DNA of 64,000 bases from Tessaracoccus palaemonis (GTDB lineage Bacteria; Actinomycetota; Actinomycetes; Propionibacteriales; Propionibacteriaceae), in contig NZ_CP079216.1 in the NCBI RefSeq assembly GCF_019316905.1, positions 434,001 through 498,000 on the forward strand, in the 5' to 3' direction. A program made the position numbers and the translations under genes. This document shows, piece by piece, positions 1,112 to 33,335 of the stretch. Positions within the stretch are counted from its first letter, which is position 1, and every line of letters begins with the position of its first letter. The notes below the pieces were generated by a model. That model saw only the letters and a program-made list of their open reading frames with translations. It did not search any database and had not been told where the DNA came from.

Positions 1112-3547
1112 TCAGGAGACGGCTGCGGCCCGGTTGATACTCCAGGTTGTGCGCCAGGGGGCGCCGAAGCAGGTGTAGGCGCCGGCGGCCGGTGTGCCGG
1201 CGGTGGCGGCGGCCAGCGCGGCCGCCGCGTCGAGCCCGCGGGCCAGGCCGTCGTGGTAGCGGCTCATCGTGGCGGCGGCCGTGGCGTCGGCGATGGGGGA
1301 CACGGGGGCGACGACGCACGCGACGCCGCGCGCCAGCAGCGTCGCGGTCAGCCCCAGCGGCTGCTCGCCGGGCCGGTGCGTCGTGCGGCCGACCTCGCAC
1401 GCGCTCAGCACGATGTGGCTGGCCCGGAGCCGCACGCGTTCCAGCTCGTGCGCCACGACGGTGCCCTCCGCGAGCCGGAGGCTGGAGAACAGCGGCGAGT
1501 CGGGGCGGTGCAGGCCGTGGGCCGCGACGTGCACCAGGTCCGCCCTGGCGAGGGCCTCGCCGAGCCGGGAGGCCCTCTCTGCGCCCCAGGTGACCTCGAC
1601 GGCGGCCACCTCGGCGTCGGCGAGCGGCAGGTCAGGCCCGCTCAGCGCGGTCACGACGGGGTCGGCGACCTGACGACCGCAGGTCGCCCAACTGGACGCC
1701 GTCGGGGCGACGGTGACGCTCCGGCCCGCCAGGTCGGGCAGCGCGAGCCAGGGAACACCCGCCAGCTCGCGGGACGGGACAACAACCAGCGGGGAGGCCC
1801 CGGACAGTGGCCGGGCGACCACCTCCGACAGCGCCCCCAGCCGCGCGGCCAGGGAGGCGTCGACGGTGGCAGCGAGGGGGTGCGCCGAGCCGATGCGGGC
1901 CCGGGCCGTGAGGTCCGTGAGCGCCGCGCCGGCCAGCGCCGTGATCTCCGTGCGGCCGCCCAGCCTCACGAGCCGCTCGGGTCCCTGCCCGAGGACGGCC
2001 ACCCACAGCTCGTCGGCCATCGGGACCGCCACGGCGAGCGTGACGCCGTTCTCGCGCACAGCCCGTCGCAGCCTGGCGATCGGCAGCGTGAGGACCGCGG
2101 CCGGCACGTCGGTGGCGAGCCACGTGACGGACTGGAGCTCCCGTTCCGCGTCGACGACGGCCCGCTCGCAGGCGGCCGACGACGGGTCGGCGTTCGCGGC
2201 GGCCCGCACGCGACGCAGCTCGGCGGCGGCCTCGGCGACGCGCGGGTCCTCGTCGGGTTCCATCCTCGGCGTGGGACGCAGCGCCGCGCGCCACCGCTCG
2301 GTCGCGTCGATCAGCGTGGCCACGCGCCGACCGGGGGCGGCCCGCGCGGCCAGGGCGATGTCGAGGTCGGCCGCCTGGACTCCGTGCAGCGCGACGGCCG
2401 CGCGCAGGTCGAGGCTGGAGGTGCCGAGTTGGGCCCGCAGCAGCGTCGAGTAGGCCGACCGGAGCTGGCGGCGGGCCCGCGGCAGGTCGCCCTGGCGGTC
2501 GGACTCGCGGGCCAACGCGACGAGCCCGGCGAGGCGCCGCGACACGACGGGGGAGCGGGCGAGCGTGCGGGTGGCCTCGGCGAGGCTCTCACGGGTGGGG
2601 TCGCCCGACGGGGTCAGCGAGAGGAGGACGGCGGCGGCCTGCGGGGCGACCCAGCGGTCTCCCGCTCGCCGTGCCTTCACGAGCAGGGCCTCCGCGGCAT
2701 CGTGCTGAGGCTCCGCCTGCAGCGCCACGAGGAGGCAGCGCCTGGCCCAGGCGGGCTCGCCGCGCCCCGCGAAACCGTCGGCGGCCTGCCTGGCGAGCCT
2801 GGCTGCCTCGGTCGCGTGGCCGAGCAGCAGCAGGGCGCGGGCCAGTTCGTGGTCCCGCTCGCCACCCAGGTGGGGGTCGGTGGGGGCCATGTCGGCCAGC
2901 AGGGACCTGGCCTCGTCGACGAGCCCGGCCTCGAGCAGCACGCGGGCGCGGTCGAGGCGCGACGTGTTGCGGTCGAGATCGACGTCGATCGCGTCGGCCT
3001 CCCGCATGGCGGCAAGTGCCTCGGGCAACTGGCCGCGCACGAACAGCACCCAGCCGAGGTTGTGGCGGGCCATGAACAGCAGCGGCGTGGCGCCCAGCAC
3101 CTCGGCCAGTTCGGCGCAGGCACGCAGATCGGCCACCGCCGCGTCCGGGCGCCAGAGCTCCGAGGCGAGCGTGCCGCGGTTCAGGAACAGCCGGACGCGG
3201 TCGGGCGGGGGAAGCGAGTCGGGGTCGACCCGGCCGAGCGCGGCGAGCGCGGCGTCCAGCTCTCCGGAGCGTGCGAGCACGATCCCCTCCTGCACGCCGG
3301 CGGCCGCCGCGACGTGTGGCAGCAGCGCTGCGTCGGCGGCGACGGCGCGGACCTCGGCGAGCGCCGCCGCCGGCCCGGACCTCTCGAACGTCACCCAGCT
3401 CGACGAGAGCCGCACCCGCAGCCGCGTCTCGGCGTCGGACGGGCCGCAGACGGCGAGCGCACGACGAAGCAGCAGGTCGGCCGCGTCGGTCCGCTGCTCA
3501 GCCAGCGCGGCGCGGGCCTGCTCGTACAGCTCGGTGGGTGAGGTCAA
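1112..3547 (-). CDS. TPR-CHAT domain protein (caspase-like cysteine peptidase)
   Basis: 811 residues. The TTG start at 3547 overlaps the TGA of the upstream gene (TTGA) and has GGGAG just before it; longer versions would run into the upstream gene. The N-terminal half is Ala/Leu/Arg-rich helical repeat of TPR type (for example LYEQARAALAEQRTDAADLL). The C-terminal third is a CHAT domain: a strand-rich VVVPSRELAGVPWLAL segment, the catalytic His677 in HVAAHG, Cys717 in LSACEVG, and the closing GLTATLLARGVACVVAPV. CHAT domains are clan CD peptidases related to caspases and separase. The protein is probably cytoplasmic because no signal peptide is seen. Its neighbours are a serine protease and a sigma factor, which suggests signalling by regulated proteolysis. 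The family call is firm; substrate and trigger are unknown. Confidence 0.9.
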   Translation of the reverse strand: MTSPTELYEQARAALAEQRTDAADLLLRRALAVCGPSDAETRLRVRLSSSWVTFERSGPAAALAEVRAVAADAALLPHVAAAAGVQEGIVLARSGELDAALAALGRVDPDSLPPPDRVRLFLNRGTLASELWRPDAAVADLRACAELAEVLGATPLLFMARHNLGWVLFVRGQLPEALAAMREADAIDVDLDRNTSRLDRARVLLEAGLVDEARSLLADMAPTDPHLGGERDHELARALLLLGHATEAARLARQAADGFAGRGEPAWARRCLLVALQAEPQHDAAEALLVKARRAGDRWVAPQAAAVLLSLTPSGDPTRESLAEATRTLARSPVVSRRLAGLVALARESDRQGDLPRARRQLRSAYSTLLRAQLGTSSLDLRAAVALHGVQAADLDIALAARAAPGRRVATLIDATERWRAALRPTPRMEPDEDPRVAEAAAELRRVRAAANADPSSAACERAVVDAERELQSVTWLATDVPAAVLTLPIARLRRAVRENGVTLAVAVPMADELWVAVLGQGPERLVRLGGRTEITALAGAALTDLTARARIGSAHPLAATVDASLAARLGALSEVVARPLSGASPLVVVPSRELAGVPWLALPDLAGRSVTVAPTASSWATCGRQVADPVVTALSGPDLPLADAEVAAVEVTWGAERASRLGEALARADLVHVAAHGLHRPDSPLFSSLRLAEGTVVAHELERVRLRASHIVLSACEVGRTTHRPGEQPLGLTATLLARGVACVVAPVSPIADATAAATMSRYHDGLARGLDAAAALAAATAGTPAAGAYTCFGAPWRTTWSINRAAAVS

Positions 3548-4017
3548 GACGCTCCCGGGATCTCGATGAACGGGGTGGCCACCGCCCGGTCGCCCGCGCG
3601 GACGGGGTGGATGACGAAACGGACGCTGCCGGGCTGCACCGCGGGCCACTCGAGCCGCCCCGTCGCGTCGGAGGTGGAGGTGTACACGGCGGTGGAGGTG
3701 TGCAGGTCGACGCGGACGCCACCTCCGGTGATCCATCCGGCCACCCGCACGCCATCGTCGGACGGGGCCCACGTCACCATCAGGCTGATGGTCGACGCGG
3801 TGAACGTGACGGTGTCGACCTCAGCCCTGGCCGGCTGCAGGGCATCGCTGGTCAGGACAGCCAACTCGGCGTTCATCAGCTCCAGCGACACGGCCAGGGC
3901 TATGCGGTCCAGCATCCCGGGGGGCATCGGGTCGGCCTGTTCCTGAGCGTCGGCGAGCGCCGCCAGCAGGGCGAGGTCGTCGTCGGTCAGTGGGGCATCG
4001 GCGTCGTGGGAGTTCAT
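3544..4017 (-). CDS. small protein with carboxypeptidase-regulatory-like beta domain, between sigma factor and CHAT gene
   Basis: 157 residues. The ATG at 4017 overlaps the sigma-factor stop (ATGA) and GGAG lies upstream. The N-terminal about 60 residues are acidic and helical (LTDDDLALLAALADAQEQ). The C-terminal about 95 residues form a beta-rich domain with a VDLHTSTAVYTSTSDATGR segment typical of carboxypeptidase-regulatory-like or transthyretin-like folds. No transmembrane helix or zinc-binding HxxxCxxC motif is seen, so it is not a classical membrane or ZAS anti-sigma factor. Its position directly after the sigma factor makes a regulatory partner role possible, but this is inference. Confidence 0.8.
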   Translation of the reverse strand: MNSHDADAPLTDDDLALLAALADAQEQADPMPPGMLDRIALAVSLELMNAELAVLTSDALQPARAEVDTVTFTASTISLMVTWAPSDDGVRVAGWITGGGVRVDLHTSTAVYTSTSDATGRLEWPAVQPGSVRFVIHPVRAGDRAVATPFIEIPGAS

Positions 4018-4586
4018 GACCGGCTCCATCCTGGGTCGTGGGACAGCGCGGCGCGCAGCGCGGCGAGGCAGCGGCCGCGCGTCGGGCCGATGGACCCCAC
4101 CGGCATGCCGAGCGCCTTCGAGATGGCCGCGTAGTCGGGCGTCGCGGCGTACGCGACGACGCGCAGCAGCGCCTGGCAGCGTGGGTTGAGCGTCGCAACG
4201 TGGCGCCACAGGCGGGCGTTCGCGTCGCCGTCGAGGACGCTGTCCTCCGGGCCGGAGGTCTCGTCCACAGGCTCGACGTCGAGGGGCTGGGTCGGCCGGC
4301 CGCCGGCGACGCGCCAGGACTCGCGTCGGACGCTGGTCAGCAGCCACGCGAACACGGCCTGTGGGTCACGGACACCGTCGGCGTGCCGGACCAGGGACAC
4401 CCAGGCGCCCTGCACGACGTCCTCGGCCTGTTCGCGCGTCAGCCCGCACGACCTGGCGGCGGCCCAGAGCGGCGGGGTGAGCAGCCGGACGAGGTCGGCC
4501 ATGCGTGCGGTGTCACCCGCGAGGTAGTCGAGGAAGGCGGCGCCCGCCTCGTCGGAGAGCGAGCCGGTCCGGCCGGGGGTGGTCAT
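4014..4586 (-). CDS. ECF-type RNA polymerase sigma factor
   Basis: 190 residues. The start at 4586 overlaps the S8 protease stop (ATGA). Region 2 is visible at about residues 25-90 (LTREQAEDVVQGAWVSLVRH, then AWLLTSVRRESWR) and a region 4 helix-turn-helix at about residues 130-180 (LLRVVAYAATPDYAAISKAL, then GRCLAALR). Length and two-domain layout fit ECF sigma factors, which direct RNA polymerase to a small regulon. It probably controls this cassette or genes responding to the same signal. No obvious membrane anti-sigma factor is next to it. The neighbouring 157-residue protein or the proteases could control it. Confidence 0.85.
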   Translation of the reverse strand: MTTPGRTGSLSDEAGAAFLDYLAGDTARMADLVRLLTPPLWAAARSCGLTREQAEDVVQGAWVSLVRHADGVRDPQAVFAWLLTSVRRESWRVAGGRPTQPLDVEPVDETSGPEDSVLDGDANARLWRHVATLNPRCQALLRVVAYAATPDYAAISKALGMPVGSIGPTRGRCLAALRAALSHDPGWSRS

Positions 4587-9683: not shown

Positions 9684-10071
9684 CCCCCTCGCGGGAGACG
9701 GGTAGGGGCGGGCCGGGCTTACGGTGGGGTTTCCTGGTGCCGGTTCCCGACCTCGGCGGGCTTGGCCCCGGTTCCCGGCCTCGGGGGCTTGGTCCCGGTT
9801 CGCCGAGCACTTCGACAGGCTCAGCACATGCACTTCGACAGGCTCAGCACATGCACTTCGACAGGCTCAGCACATGCCTGCCTGTCGAGGTGCCTCGAGC
9901 GGAGCGAGAGTCTGCCCGGGTAGGACTTCCCTTCGCCGCGATCATGCCCGGTTCGCCGCGCTCATGCCCGGTTCGCCGACCACTTCGACAGGCTCAGCAC
10001 ATGCCTGTCGAGGTGCCTCGAGTGGAGCGAGAGACCCTCCTGGACAGGACCTTCCCTTCGCTGCGCTCAGG
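9684..10071. repeat. gene-free stretch of family A repeats, including three perfect 23-bp units
   Basis: No gene is seen in this 388-bp stretch. Three perfect tandem copies of a 23-bp unit containing TTCGACAGGCTCAGCACATG occupy 9808-9876. They are followed by CCTGTCGAGGTGCCTCGAG plus GGAGCGAGAG modules, and further copies at about 9979-10040. The core TTCGACAGGCTCA is the complement of TGAGCCTGTCGAA, found in both orientations here and after the IS element. This is a REP-like dispersed family; related sequence lies inside two Pdu genes. Confidence 0.85.
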
Positions 10072-11510
10072 GGTCAAGTCCCGTGGTGTGGTGTCATTCC
10101 GTTGCTTCCTGTTGGTGGGTGATGGTCAGGCGGTGAGGTAGAGCTCGTGGTGGGCGGGTTCGGTGTGTTCGTGGAGGGTGTGGACGAGTTTGCGCATGGA
10201 GATGTCGGAGAAGTAGCGGCGTTCGCCGTAAGACCATTCCTCGTGCTGCTCCTGGAGGACGGCGCCGATGAGGCGGGTCACGGAGTCGCGGTCGGGGAAG
10301 ATCTGGACGACGTCGGCGCGTCGTTTGATCTCCCGGTTGAGGCGCTCGATGGGGTTGTTCGACCAGACCTTTTGCCAGTGCTCGCGCGGCAGCGTCGCGA
10401 ACCCGGTCAGGTCCGCTTCGGCGGCCTCGAGCATCGCGGTGACCTCGGGAAACGCGGAGCGGAGGCTGTCGGTGACGGCCTTGTATTGCGCGATCACGGT
10501 TTGGGTCGTGGTCTGCGCGAAGATCGTGGAGATCAGCGCGTTGACCGGTTTCGAGTGGGCCGATCCGAGGCGTTGAGTTACGTTGCGGGCGAAGTGGACC
10601 CGGCATCTCTGCCACCCCGCTCCGGGCAGGATCGCTTTCACTGCCGCTTTCAGTCCGGCGTGCGCGTCGCTGGTGACCAGGGTCACCCCGAGCGGGTCCG
10701 CATCGGTGGCGACCTTGAGGCCACGGTCGCGCAGCGAGCGGAGGAACTCGGTCCAGAAGTCGGTGGTCTCCGCGTCACCGAGCGCCATCCCGAGGATCTC
10801 GCGTCGGCCCTCACCAGAGACTCCGGTCGCGACGACCAGTGCTTGGGAGACGACCCGGCCGCGGTGGCGGACGTCGAGGTAGGTGGCGTCGAGGAACAGG
10901 TACGGGAACCAGGTGTGATCGAGTCTGCGGTGCAGGAACTCGTGGACTGCCTCGTCGATCTCGCCGCAGATCCGCGACACCGTCGAGCGGGAGATGCCGG
11001 TGTCGTTGCCGAGCGCACGGATCAGGTGCTCGACCTTCCGGGTCGAGACCCCGTCGATCCAGGCCTGGCAGATCACCGCGTAGAGGGCCTTATCGACCCG
11101 CCGCCGCGGGTGCAACAGAGACGGGAAGAACGACCCTTCCCGCAGCTTCGGGATCTGCAGGTCGACCTCCCCGGCCGGGGTCGCGAGGACCTTCGGGCGC
11201 GTGCCGTTGCGGCGGGTGGTCCGTTCCGGGGTGCGCTCGTAACGGGCGGCGCCGATCTTCGCGGTCGCTTCCGCGTCGACAAGGTCTTGCAGGCCGGCCT
11301 GCAGCATCCGGCGGAACACGTCCTGATGCGCGAGGTCGGGATCGGCGAGAACTTCACCGATCAGGGTCGAAAGGGCAGACTGGTACTGGGTCATCGTGGG
11401 ATCTCTGCTTTGCTTCTTGCCGGAAACAACTGGTCATCCCACGATGGCCCTTCAACGTCCACGACGACGAGAACCCCCACAGGATTGACACCACGCTATG
11501 GGACTCACCC
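10072..11510 (-). mobile_element. complete IS256-family insertion sequence, 1439 bp, with 8-bp target duplication
   Basis: Imperfect 29-bp terminal inverted repeats (22 of 29 identical) lie at 10072-10100 and 11482-11510, sharing GTGGTGTCA. The element is flanked by direct repeats CGCTCAGG at 10064-10071 and 11511-11518, the size expected for IS256 transposition. One intact transposase fills the element on the minus strand. Joining the flanks rebuilds a family A repeat, so the IS inserted into a repeat copy. Intact ends, duplication and transposase suggest a recent insertion. Confidence 0.92.
10126..11394 (-). CDS. IS256-family transposase (mutator type)
   Basis: 422 residues, ATG 11394. A DDE transposase: candidate catalytic Asp residues in FLDATYLDVR and TSDAHAGLK and the Glu in NPIERLNREIKRR, with the mutator signature around the second Asp and the CRVHFARN motif. 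The N-terminal domain (residues 1-150) is the DNA-binding part. Full length for the family and unbroken, so it may be active. It cuts and rejoins the ends of the surrounding element. Confidence 0.95.
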   Translation of the reverse strand: MTQYQSALSTLIGEVLADPDLAHQDVFRRMLQAGLQDLVDAEATAKIGAARYERTPERTTRRNGTRPKVLATPAGEVDLQIPKLREGSFFPSLLHPRRRVDKALYAVICQAWIDGVSTRKVEHLIRALGNDTGISRSTVSRICGEIDEAVHEFLHRRLDHTWFPYLFLDATYLDVRHRGRVVSQALVVATGVSGEGRREILGMALGDAETTDFWTEFLRSLRDRGLKVATDADPLGVTLVTSDAHAGLKAAVKAILPGAGWQRCRVHFARNVTQRLGSAHSKPVNALISTIFAQTTTQTVIAQYKAVTDSLRSAFPEVTAMLEAAEADLTGFATLPREHWQKVWSNNPIERLNREIKRRADVVQIFPDRDSVTRLIGAVLQEQHEEWSYGERRYFSDISMRKLVHTLHEHTEPAHHELYLTA

Positions 11511-11990
11511 CGCTCAGGGCGTTTCGACAGGGCCTGTGCTGAGCCTGTCGAAGTGCTCAACGAGCCGATTCGCCGTGCTGTGCCGCGGGCAAGCCACCGC
11601 TACCGAGCGACGACGGACTCAGCCCTTGTTCGCCGAGCACCGCGTCAGGCTCAGCCCGACCTGGGTAGAGGCGCCACGAGTGGAGCGAGAGGTCTGCCCG
11701 GGCAGAGCTTCCCTTCGCCGCGCTCATGCCCGGTTTGCCGAGCACTTCGACAGCCTCAGCACATGCCTGTCGAGGTGCCTTGAGCGGAGCGAGAGTCTCC
11801 CCGGGCAGGGCTTCGTTTCGCCGCGCTCATGCCCGGTTCGCCGAGCCTGTCGAGGTGCCTCGAGCGGAGCGAGAGGTCTGCCCGGGCAGGACTTCGTTTC
11901 GCTGCGCGCAGGGCGTCTCGACAAGCATGTGCTGAGCCTGTCGAAGTGCTCAGCGAGGCCGGCCGCTGCCCCTGCCAGCGCCGCCACAGG
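11511..11990. repeat. gene-free family A repeat cluster right of the IS
   Basis: No gene is seen. Several partial copies of the REP-like family A occur in both orientations: TGAGCCTGTCGAAGTGCTCA forms at about 11540 and 11935, and CACTTCGACAGCCTCAGCAC near 11743. CGAGCGGAGCGAGAG and TGCCCGGGCAG modules recur between them. Copies are separated by GCTCATGCCCGGTTCGCCGAG. The cluster continues the one left of the IS, so the two were one array before the insertion. Confidence 0.8.
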
Positions 11991-30276: not shown

Positions 30277-31100
30277 GCACCATGACCGCGACCCCTACGT
30301 CCCAGCTCGACCGGTTCGCCCGCCAGGTGCGCTCCGGGCGGACGGCTGCGCCCGGCGGCGCCTGCCGGCTGGGCGTCGACCTCGGCACGGGCAACATCGT
30401 GCTTGCCGTGGTCGACGGGGACGACCATCCCATCGGCGGGGCCTGGCTCCGCTCGACGGTCGTCCGTGACGGGGTCGTGGTCGACTGGCTGGGGGCCGTG
30501 AGGGCCGTCGGTCAGCTGCGCGACGCACTCGCCGGGAAGCTCGGCGTCACGTTCCGCGAGGCCGCCGTCGCGATTCCTCCGGGCATCGACGCGGGGACCA
30601 CCAAGGTGTTCACCAACGTGCTGGAGGCCTGCGGACTCGAGGCGTCGGAGGTCGTCGACGAGCCGGTCGCGGCGGCCACGGCGCTCGGCGTCACCGACGG
30701 CGTTGTGATCGATGTCGGCCACGGGACCACAGGGGTCTCGATCCTGCGCGACTCCGAGGTGCTGAAGTCCGTGGACCAGGCCACCGGCGGCCACCACATG
30801 ACCCTGGTGATCTCGGGCGCTCTCGGCATCGACTATGAGGCCGCGGAGCAGCTCAAGCGTGACCCCGCGCAGGGCGATCTCGTGATCGGCCTGATCCGCC
30901 CGACGCTCGAGAAGATGGCGACCATCGCCGCGGAGGCGACGGTCGGCTACGAGGAGTTCCCCGTCTACCTCGTGGGCGGTTCGAGCTCCTACCCACAGTC
31001 ACCGGCCGTGTTCGAGGGCGTCCTCCGGCGCCCCGTCACCCGGCCGGACGAGCCGCTGTTCCCCACCCCGCTGGGGACGGCGATGAGGAGGAACAGGTGA
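30273..31100 (+). CDS. eutJ: EutJ-family Hsp70-like chaperone
   Basis: 275 residues, ATG 30273. An actin/Hsp70-type ATPase domain without a substrate-binding domain: LGVDLGTGNIVLAVVDGDD near residue 33, VVIDVGHGTTGVSILRD near residue 145, and VYLVGGSSSYP near the end. EutJ is found in ethanolamine and some Pdu loci and is thought to help enzyme assembly or reactivation. Its presence in an operon that already has PduGH is notable. Overlaps both neighbours. Confidence 0.88.
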   Translation: MSTMTATPTSQLDRFARQVRSGRTAAPGGACRLGVDLGTGNIVLAVVDGDDHPIGGAWLRSTVVRDGVVVDWLGAVRAVGQLRDALAGKLGVTFREAAVAIPPGIDAGTTKVFTNVLEACGLEASEVVDEPVAAATALGVTDGVVIDVGHGTTGVSILRDSEVLKSVDQATGGHHMTLVISGALGIDYEAAEQLKRDPAQGDLVIGLIRPTLEKMATIAAEATVGYEEFPVYLVGGSSSYPQSPAVFEGVLRRPVTRPDEPLFPTPLGTAMRRNR

Positions 31101-31888
31101 CAGAGCAGGAGCTGCGCTCCCTGATCAGGCAGGTCGTCGTCGAGGTGCTCGCCGACGGGGCCCCGGCGCGCCCGGAGCCCCGCAACGCGCTGGTGCTGTT
31201 CACCGGCGCCTTGCTCGGGTTCGAGGCCTCGCTGGAGTCGCTGCGGCGGCTCAAGGCGACGGGCCTGGTCAACCTCGACTGGACCCAGACCCACTCCGCA
31301 TCGAAGATCCTCGACCAGCAGGCCATCGAGTCCATCGGCATGTGCCCGGCAGAGAAGTCGCTCGTGATGGGCCACGACATGCTGATCATCCCGACCGCGA
31401 CCGTGAACATGGTCGCGAAGGTCGCGCACGGCATCGGCGACTGCCTCGCCTCGAACGTGATGGCCGAGTTCATCATGTTCGACAAGCCCGTCGTCCTGTC
31501 CGTCAACGCCTGCGGAGACACCCCCGACAAGCGCGGCTGGTTCCCCGACCTGCCCGCCGGCTACTCGCGCATGCTGCAGGGCAACCTCGAGGCGCTCGCG
31601 TCCTTCGGCGTGACCCTGGCCTCGTCCGAGACGCTCGACGAGGCGGTTGGTTCCCTGAGCCTGTCGAAGGGCCCTGAGCCTGCCGAAGGGAAGGCCGTCT
31701 CGACAGGCTCAACGCGTTTCGACAAGCTCAACGACCCGGTCGTCTGCGCCGAGCGGCTGATCCACGACGGGATCGTCAAGACGGTCGCGCCCCGCACCAC
31801 GCTGCGGGTCGGCGCAGGGGCGCTCATCACGGCGCTCGCGCGGGAGACCGCCGCGGCGCGCAACATCATCATCGAGAGGGAGCACTGA
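31097..31888 (+). CDS. microcompartment-associated flavoprotein
   Basis: 263 residues, GTG 31097 with GAGGAGGAACAG upstream. Starts with a likely encapsulation helix (TEQELRSLIRQVVVEVLADG), then a Rossmann-like flavoprotein domain of the HFCD/Flavoprotein type (ALVLFTGALLGFEASLESL, MLIIPTATVNMVAKVAHGIGD, MAEFIMFDKPVVLSV). Residues 185-212 are an inserted repeat-encoded peptide. Its job is unknown. A reducing role in the cobalamin cycle, in place of the missing PduS, is a reasonable guess because pduO is two genes downstream. Confidence 0.75.
   Translation: MTEQELRSLIRQVVVEVLADGAPARPEPRNALVLFTGALLGFEASLESLRRLKATGLVNLDWTQTHSASKILDQQAIESIGMCPAEKSLVMGHDMLIIPTATVNMVAKVAHGIGDCLASNVMAEFIMFDKPVVLSVNACGDTPDKRGWFPDLPAGYSRMLQGNLEALASFGVTLASSETLDEAVGSLSLSKGPEPAEGKAVSTGSTRFDKLNDPVVCAERLIHDGIVKTVAPRTTLRVGAGALITALARETAAARNIIIEREH
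31649..31732 (+). repeat. family A repeat inserted in frame in the flavoprotein gene (84 nt, 28 codons)
   Basis: GGTTCCCTGAGCCTGTCGAA and CTCGACAGGCTCA halves form a REP-like palindromic element of exactly 28 codons, encoding GSLSLSKGPEPAEG and then KAVSTGSTRFDKLN. The host reading frame is kept on both sides. A nearly identical copy lies in pduO. Confidence 0.9.
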
Positions 31889-31889
31889 C

Positions 31890-32162
31890 ATGTACCTGGC
31901 CAAGGTCATCGGGAATGTCGTCTCGACCAGCAAGGACCCCCGCCTCGTCGGCTTCAAGCTGATGCTGACCCGGCGCCTCGACGAGTCCGGCGCGCTGACC
32001 GGAACCCCTGAGGTGTGTGTCGACACAGTCGGCGCCGGCAACGGGGAGACGGTCATCGTCACCAAGGGCTCCTCTGCCCGCTTCGCGGCCGACCGCAAGG
32101 AAGCCCCCATCGACTCCACGATCGTCGGCATCGTCGACGCTGTCGAGATCGACGAGCGCTGA
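31890..32162 (+). CDS. pduN: PduN pentameric vertex protein (BMV/EutN-CcmL family)
   Basis: 90 residues, ATG 31890. An EutN/CcmL beta-barrel: MYLAKVIGNVVSTSKDPRL, then VCVDTVGAGNGETVIVTKGS and DSTIVGIVDAVEI. It caps the vertices of the polyhedral shell. One base after the flavoprotein stop. Confidence 0.95.
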   Translation: MYLAKVIGNVVSTSKDPRLVGFKLMLTRRLDESGALTGTPEVCVDTVGAGNGETVIVTKGSSARFAADRKEAPIDSTIVGIVDAVEIDER

Positions 32163-32165
32163 CCG

Positions 32166-33335
32166 ATGCCCGCCATCTACACCCGCACCGGCGACAAGGG
32201 GACCACCGGCCTGTTCGGTGGCTCCCGCGTCACCAAGCAGAGCCTGCGCGTCGAGGCCTACGGGACCGTCGACGAGGCCAATGCGGCGCTGGGCGCGGCG
32301 AAGGCCGGGCTCGAGCCGGGGCCGTGGCGGGACCGGATCCACGCGATCCAGCAGCGCATGTTCGTCGCGGGTGCGGAACTCGCCTCCGACGCCAAGGGCG
32401 CCGAGATCCTCGCCAACAAGATCTCCACCGCCGACATCGAGGGCCTCGAGCACCTGATCGACGACTGCCTGGCCATCACCGGCCCGCAGCGCTCGTTCGT
32501 GGTGCCAGGCCGCGACGAGGTCTCCGCCCCGTTCCACGTCGCGCGAACCGTCGTCCGCCGGGCCGAGCGCCGCTGTCTGACCCTTGCCGAGCATGAGCCC
32601 GTCCGGCCGGAGCTCATCAAGTTCCTCAACCGACTCTCCGACGCCGTCTACTCGGTCGCCCGCCTCACGGAGACGTGGTACGAGCTGGCGCACGTCGAGC
32701 AGGTCGTCCGCGACACCGTCGCCAGGTACTGGCCGCAGCTGGACGGTTCCCTGAGCCCCTCCGGTTCCCTGAGCCCGGCCGGTTCCCTGAGCTTGTCGAA
32801 GGGCCCTGAGCTTGTCGAAGGGGAAGGCGTCTCGACAGGCTCGACGCGTTTCGACAGGCTCAACGATCCGGCTGAGACCTCCCGCTGGGCTGCGATGCGC
32901 GCGCACTGCGACGCACGCGCGCCGGAGGCGCTGCTCAGGCTCGCGAAGGAGCTGGCCGAAGGCGCGGAGAAGCGGGCGACGATGCTCGGCGTGCCGATGG
33001 TGATCGTCGTGGTCGACGCGGCGGGTAACCAGGTGCTGCTGCACCGGATGCCCGGGTCGCTGATCGCGAGCCTGGAGATCGCCGCCAACAAGGCCTGGAG
33101 CGCGAACGCGTTCAAGATGCCCACCGCCGACCTCGGGCCGCTGGCGGCCGAGGGCGGCGCCCTCCCCGGACTGGCGGGGGGCAACTCGGGACGTGTCGTC
33201 CTCTTCGGAGGCGGCGTCCCACTCATCGTCGACGGTGCCGTCATCGGCGCCCTCGGCATCTCCGGCGGCACCGTCGACGAGGACTGCGACGTCGCCACTT
33301 ATGCACTGACAACCGTGATGGGAGCACAGAAATGA
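32166..33335 (+). CDS. pduO: PduO-type ATP:cob(I)alamin adenosyltransferase fused to a GlcG/HbpS-like domain
   Basis: 389 residues, ATG 32166. The N-terminal domain (1-190) transfers adenosyl to cobalamin: YTRTGDKGTTGLFGG is the ATP-binding start and ARTVVRRAERRCL the conserved helix. The C-terminal domain (240-389) is of GlcG/HbpS type (ALLRLAKELAEGAEKRA, VIVVVDAAGNQVLLHRMPG, GALGISGGTVDEDC), known in Salmonella to bind heme. Residues 194-233 between them are encoded by an inserted repeat. The insertion falls in the natural linker, so function is probably kept. Confidence 0.93.
   Translation: MPAIYTRTGDKGTTGLFGGSRVTKQSLRVEAYGTVDEANAALGAAKAGLEPGPWRDRIHAIQQRMFVAGAELASDAKGAEILANKISTADIEGLEHLIDDCLAITGPQRSFVVPGRDEVSAPFHVARTVVRRAERRCLTLAEHEPVRPELIKFLNRLSDAVYSVARLTETWYELAHVEQVVRDTVARYWPQLDGSLSPSGSLSPAGSLSLSKGPELVEGEGVSTGSTRFDRLNDPAETSRWAAMRAHCDARAPEALLRLAKELAEGAEKRATMLGVPMVIVVVDAAGNQVLLHRMPGSLIASLEIAANKAWSANAFKMPTADLGPLAAEGGALPGLAGGNSGRVVLFGGGVPLIVDGAVIGALGISGGTVDEDCDVATYALTTVMGAQK
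32745..32864 (+). repeat. family A repeat inserted in frame in the pduO linker (120 nt, 40 codons)
   Basis: Two extra 18-nt GGTTCCCTGAGCCC units (GSLSPS, GSLSPA) precede an 84-nt core that encodes GSLSLSKGPELVEG and then EGVSTGSTRFDRLN. The core differs from the flavoprotein insert by only five residues and is read in the same frame. The total is a multiple of three. Confidence 0.9.

Follow-up and report, generated by a model that had tools for sequence, protein, structure and literature searches.

Two neighbouring pdu-cluster proteins of Tessaracoccus palaemonis very probably contain a dispersed REP-like hairpin repeat in translated form

Two adjoining genes of a pdu-type cluster, the flavoprotein gene and pduO, contain inserts that encode almost the same peptide, and these two peptides very probably result from the translation of a dispersed REP-like hairpin repeat, kept in frame in flexible linkers. 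An earlier note on the window (the whole stretch of 64,000 nucleotides analysed here) had described in-frame repeats with a near-identical peptide in both genes; these are real, with exact coordinates, and both start at codon phase 0 of their own gene. Each insert combines four hairpin units with the core TTCGACARGCTCA, of which two are inverted and two direct, arranged as follows:

31097..31888, plus strand: flavoprotein gene of the pdu cluster, 263 aa, PF02441, with orthologues in 48 of 198 genomes of the family
31649..31732, plus strand: in-frame composite repeat insert of the flavoprotein gene, 84 nt / 28 aa, in a linker C-terminal to the flavoprotein domain
31656..31668, minus strand: inverted repeat unit core, flavoprotein insert
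31675..31687, minus strand: inverted repeat unit core, flavoprotein insert, 1 mismatch
31699..31711, plus strand: direct repeat unit core, flavoprotein insert, 1 mismatch
31718..31730, plus strand: direct repeat unit core, flavoprotein insert
32166..33335, plus strand: pduO, 389 aa, cobalamin adenosyltransferase (PF01923) plus HbpS-like domain (PF03928)
32745..32780, plus strand: two degenerate 18-nt units (GGTTCCCTGAGCCCNNCC) of pduO, encoding GSLSPSGSLSPA, in a copy number unlike that of the sister species
32781..32864, plus strand: 84-nt composite repeat core of pduO, in the same frame as in the flavoprotein gene
32788..32800, minus strand: inverted repeat unit core, pduO insert
32807..32819, minus strand: inverted repeat unit core, pduO insert
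32831..32843, plus strand: direct repeat unit core, pduO insert, 2 mismatches
32850..32862, plus strand: direct repeat unit core, pduO insert

The pduO insert (32745-32864) is 120 nt long, comprising the two degenerate 18-nt units and the 84-nt core, and its peptide reads GSLSPSGSLSPA followed by GSLSLSKGPELVEGEGVSTGSTRFDRLN, compared to GSLSLSKGPEPAEGKAVSTGSTRFDKLN in the flavoprotein. When aligned without gaps, the two 84-nt cores matched at 76 of 84 positions and, among the elements fetched, neither had a closer full-length match than the other, the next best reaching 79%; in elements other than these two, likeness was found mainly within the first 42 nt. The use of the same frame in both genes is true as previously described, but is weak evidence alone: TGA stops are present in two of the three forward frames of the core, and a six-frame reading left only two stop-free frames for the flavoprotein core and three for that of pduO. 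With so few of the six frames open, one composite tolerated at two sites would often be read in the same frame at both, even if the peptide itself were under no selection.

The pduO insert had been placed in the interdomain linker, and the domain limits agree with this, as it lies between the adenosyltransferase domain (residues 4-167) and the HbpS-like domain (258-381). In the AlphaFold models, residues 197-207 of the flavoprotein had a pLDDT under 50, compared to values above 90 for the domains on either side, and so did residues 194-248 of PduO, again flanked by ordered domains. In these models, both inserts behave as disordered linkers.

The unit itself is abundant. Exact copies of the core numbered 118 + 114 = 232 in the 3.20 Mb single-contig genome, of which the window occupies 434001-498000, whereas the reversed control pattern did not occur at all, and 22 core-like sites were counted in the window where 1.8 were expected, so the repeat is not a product of chance. 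Around 213 exact cores, three main flank types were distinguished (CCC|core|GGG, CGT|core|ACG and GCAC|core|GCAC), the first flanking pair was Watson-Crick in 207 units compared to 136 expected from independent columns, and the stem pairs beside the core covaried between subtypes, although the stem adjoining the core is only ~3 bp long, shorter than in most REPs. No GTAG or CGTC tag was detected in position counts around these 213 units, and membership of the GTAG or CGTC REP superfamily was rejected on the absence of this unpaired end tag.

The placement of the elements was determined in stretches around ~200 of the 232 copies and in the window, with gene calls from our own codon-usage gene finder trained on the window. 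Although the coding share of the window is ~90%, 118 of 133 elements were intergenic, with 12 within genes and 3 at a gene edge. Convergent genes flanked 32 of 73 elements, compared to 2 of 29 background gaps, and only four elements lay between divergent genes. The family therefore has the features by which REPs are recognised: a short palindromic unit of high copy number, mostly intergenic, with a preference for the 3' sides of genes and convergent pairs. Among the clusters listed, 54 of 75 fell in the first and last quarters of the contig (p = 0.0002), even though the list stops before the far end of the contig. Two unrelated genes (L114:2096-3070 and L131:1364-1939) end in a common repeat-derived C-terminal tail, VEHFDRLSTGPVETP, followed by a stop, and further genes likewise receive their C-terminus and stop from repeat elements.

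Two groups of intergenic units in the window are:

9811..9996, plus strand: intergenic array of the core-TTCGACARGCTCA unit with GCAC-type flanks
11540..11945, minus strand: further units, in the intergenic region shared with the array at 9811..9996

The region 9684-11990 had been regarded as intergenic arrays; repeat units are indeed present, but it is not a pure intergenic array, as a transposase gene interrupts it. This IS256/Mutator-type insertion (window 9945-11510, gene 10126-11394, minus strand) is absent in the sister species and has CGCTCAGGG at either end, which is probably a 9-bp target duplication.

The distribution of the repeat among relatives is patchy. Copy numbers of 406, 232, 160, 87 and 39 were found in 5 of 36 congeneric genomes searched and of 0-5 in the other 31, and a similarly patchy abundance was detected in other genera of the family; a longer hairpin was present in 11 of 296 genomes of a phylum-wide sample that included the genome studied. 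The genus of this genome also includes [Pseudopropionibacterium] massiliense (NCBI: Arachnia, Propionibacteriaceae). The window matched no curated RNA family in Rfam, a search for the composite on plasmids or phages gave no match, and a literature search for the core sequence found no paper.

Multi-unit in-frame inserts were detected in the flavoprotein, PduO, PepN (PF01433), DnaX, EccC (FtsK/SpoIIIE) and a LolD-like ABC ATPase; counting all in-frame inserts, two ABC ATPases are among the hosts. These genic inserts are read in several frames (SLSLSKGPELVEG, STGSARFDKLN, PSTGSGNRDG), and the motifs STGSG, LRQAQ and FDRL of other inserts show that frames differ among hosts. In Mfd, an E2 acyltransferase, a helicase and a DppD-like ABC protein, a single unit matched; these matches could be degenerate copies or arise by chance, and they were not counted as proven inserts. 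The comparison with empty sites proposed in the earlier note was clear for PepN and EccC, with insert-free orthologues in many congeners. PepN was present in 38 of 39 genomes of the genus searched, and its insert of ~60 aa, in a loop between two conserved segments, was missing in all 20 aligned orthologues covering the site except that of the sister species (G017); the EccC insert lies in a linker between ATPase domains. As with Rickettsia palindromic elements, the flavoprotein, PduO, PepN and EccC inserts lie in frame in unrelated genes and are missing in orthologues. In another genus, genome G050, with 559 copies, has an in-frame insert (PSTSSG...STGSG) in IleS (locus L202, gene at 1237-4101, element at 2025-2121), at a site that resembles an editing-domain loop. 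In the same genome, the nine units listed at C1:1085837-1086017 follow each other in perfect 21-nt steps, and multiples of 21 nt recur in many arrays.

When 30 flavoprotein sequences and some 30 of PduO were aligned, the repeat peptide was found only in the species studied and in G017; no distant orthologue carried it. This, together with the patchy abundance among close relatives, supports the previous proposal of a mobile repeat tolerated as a linker, mobility being deduced from distribution. Neither a transposition event nor a target duplication of the units was detected. The two genomes share about 94-96% DNA identity in the region of the pdu inserts, and G017 has both inserts at the same sites, with a flavoprotein region 141 nt longer and a pduO region 33 nt longer, both open. 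The pduO peptide of G017 has diverged, with VSGSSRVDKLND for VSTGSTRFDRLND.

An anchored comparison of both genomes, giving the net length difference per site and not single events, revealed that all six genic differences (-42, -141, -33, +24, +30 and +39) were multiples of three, whereas none of the nine non-zero intergenic differences was (268, 380, 2, -1562, -20, -1600, -46, 23 and 608; Fisher p = 0.0002). The E2 acyltransferase site, which differs by 24 nt from the sister, was counted in this test, and a complete IS110 copy is included in two of the intergenic differences. As intergenic elements are expected to be unconstrained in length, this contrast points to selection on the host genes and not on the peptide. 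Therefore, the claim that the frame is fixed by selection held as far as genic length changes preserve the frame and intergenic ones do not, but did not extend to the exact peptide: selection keeps the frame open, and inserts elsewhere are read in other frames.

The repeat units are also targets of insertion sequences. In G017, an IS110-type transposon was found within two of the compared arrays, and its copies are:

L265, L267, L269, L271, L273, L275: IS110 copies of G017, with junctions near 1234 and 2695 in transposase orientation

In each of these six copies, the break in the unit falls at the same base (CCCTTCGA^CARGCTCAGGG). The 5' non-coding region of this element contains the 9-nt left half of the target, and CCCTTCGAC is followed there by CTTG, an arrangement like that described for IS621, with a left target guide of 9 nt and a right one of 4 nt (PMC11208160); judged from sequence, the CCCTTCGAC 9-mer is likely the bridge-RNA left target guide, any shared 9-mer having appeared by chance in 336 of 20,000 single-base shuffles. 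In genome G014, a different IS110 lies after CCCTTCGATAC (CTCTTCGATAC or TCCTTCGATAC in two copies) in 7 of 8 copies, and its non-coding region includes CTTCGATAC. There, this other IS110 (L264, L268, L270, L272, L274, L276 and L277) has landed in a second family of hairpin repeats (CCCTTCGATAC...CTACTCAGGG). As IS110 targeting of REPs is already known (PMC1525189), these insertions support calling the core-TTCGACARGCTCA units REP-like; the fixed-base insertion into repeats is alike in IS621 and REP-targeting IS110 elements (PMC11208160, PMC1525189), although both the repeat and the IS are different here. No IS110 transposase was found in the genome studied, so that this link leaves the spread of the units unexplained.

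A REP-associated tyrosine transposase (RAYT) had been suggested as the mover of the repeat. This suggestion failed, as no Y1/RAYT gene (PF01797) was detected in the genome studied nor in 14 of 15 other repeat-rich relatives, the one match being in another genus; a RAYT-mobilised REPIN was accordingly rejected. We consider it rather unlikely that this is an actinobacterial repeat which spreads without a RAYT, by an unspecified or IS110-linked mechanism, and steadily supplies in-frame disordered linkers, each of them also a landing site for bridge-RNA-guided IS110.

According to the favoured explanation, that of translated copies of a dispersed repeat, the unit would consist of the core TTCGACARGCTCA with short complementary flanks, mostly in inverted pairs, and would have multiplied in the lineage of the Arachnia-group species and its sister, mainly in intergenic regions near gene 3' ends. 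Selection would normally purge genic insertions, the survivors being those with a length in multiples of three bases, a stop-free frame and a position in a flexible linker or surface loop, where the host proteins presumably still work. Before the split from the sister, the flavoprotein linker and the interdomain linker of PduO would each have received one of two near-identical composites, one of them probably copied locally from the other, and later growth and shrinkage of the arrays would have proceeded by in-frame steps, those of 18-nt units included. Against this account, no insertion was caught with a target duplication, the closest insert-free genomes were too diverged to show junctions, and replication slippage or gene conversion could also make arrays without true transposition.

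Taken further, slippage would dispense with mobility altogether, the arrays arising locally from short chance matches. Tandem steps of 18 and 36 nt, the changes in array length between the sisters and the lack of a Y1 transposase are consistent with such an origin, but a specific 13-nt core with paired flanks at ~75 separate clusters and in hundreds of copies in several genera makes it very unlikely, because slippage cannot seed a family of arrays in which this one core recurs. Positive selection of the pdu peptide as a matched pair, for instance a neutral repeat co-opted as a sticky linker joining PduO and the flavoprotein, is decidedly unlikely: the mutual closeness of the cores over 84 nt and the retention of both inserts in the same frame in two species would fit it, but local copying and the two or three open frames explain the likeness, and in G017 the PduO peptide has diverged and copy numbers differ. 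Selection for the exact pdu peptide is unsupported, as host genes use differing frames.

A nearly identical same-frame peptide in two neighbouring cluster genes could also be taken for an old functional Pdu segment, such as an encapsulation or interaction peptide, with the other DNA repeats unrelated to it or derived from it. This reading is extremely improbable, since no other family orthologue examined has the peptide, the unit is also found in unrelated proteins in other frames and at more than 100 intergenic places, copy number differs between the sister species and the inserts have no predicted structure; an ancient protein segment was rejected on the orthologue alignments.

Comparable repeats are known. 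The GTAG- and CGTC-tagged REPs (Di Nocera et al. 2013, PMC3733652) are short hairpins that occur in tens to hundreds of copies, form inverted pairs and favour intergenic positions at 3' ends and between convergent gene pairs; those inside genes encode 20-82 aa, often in DNA replication/repair and tRNA-synthetase genes, and linkers or loops are proposed to accommodate them (PMC3733652). The family described here is alike in its hairpin pairs, copy number, location and occasional genic copies, but has neither tag, a different stem and core, and a host in the Actinomycetota, absent from the host phyla of that study. Rickettsia palindromic elements (RPE-1, RPE-4 and RPE-6, cited in PMC3733652) are likewise palindromes in frame in unrelated proteins, although unrelated in sequence, whereas the family described here has composite arrays and is mostly intergenic. 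REPINs (PMC3116915) and RAYT-associated repeats (PMC3733652) share the inverted pairs of short hairpins across the chromosome, but not the absence of the transposase. Thus, the phenomenon, that of intragenic REPs and RPE-like insertions, is known, and the repeat family and its host are apparently new; a literature search found no precedent for translated repeats of the core-TTCGACARGCTCA family or in this phylum.

The many insert-free orthologues and the comparison with the sister species show a non-coding repeat becoming part of enzymes, with selection keeping only in-frame changes. They also serve as a warning that annotated proteins can owe peptides such as LSLSKGPELVEG, STGSTRFDRLN or LRQAQGT to a translated repeat and not to a domain, and the choice of these repeats as targets by IS110 provides a natural test case for bridge-RNA guides.
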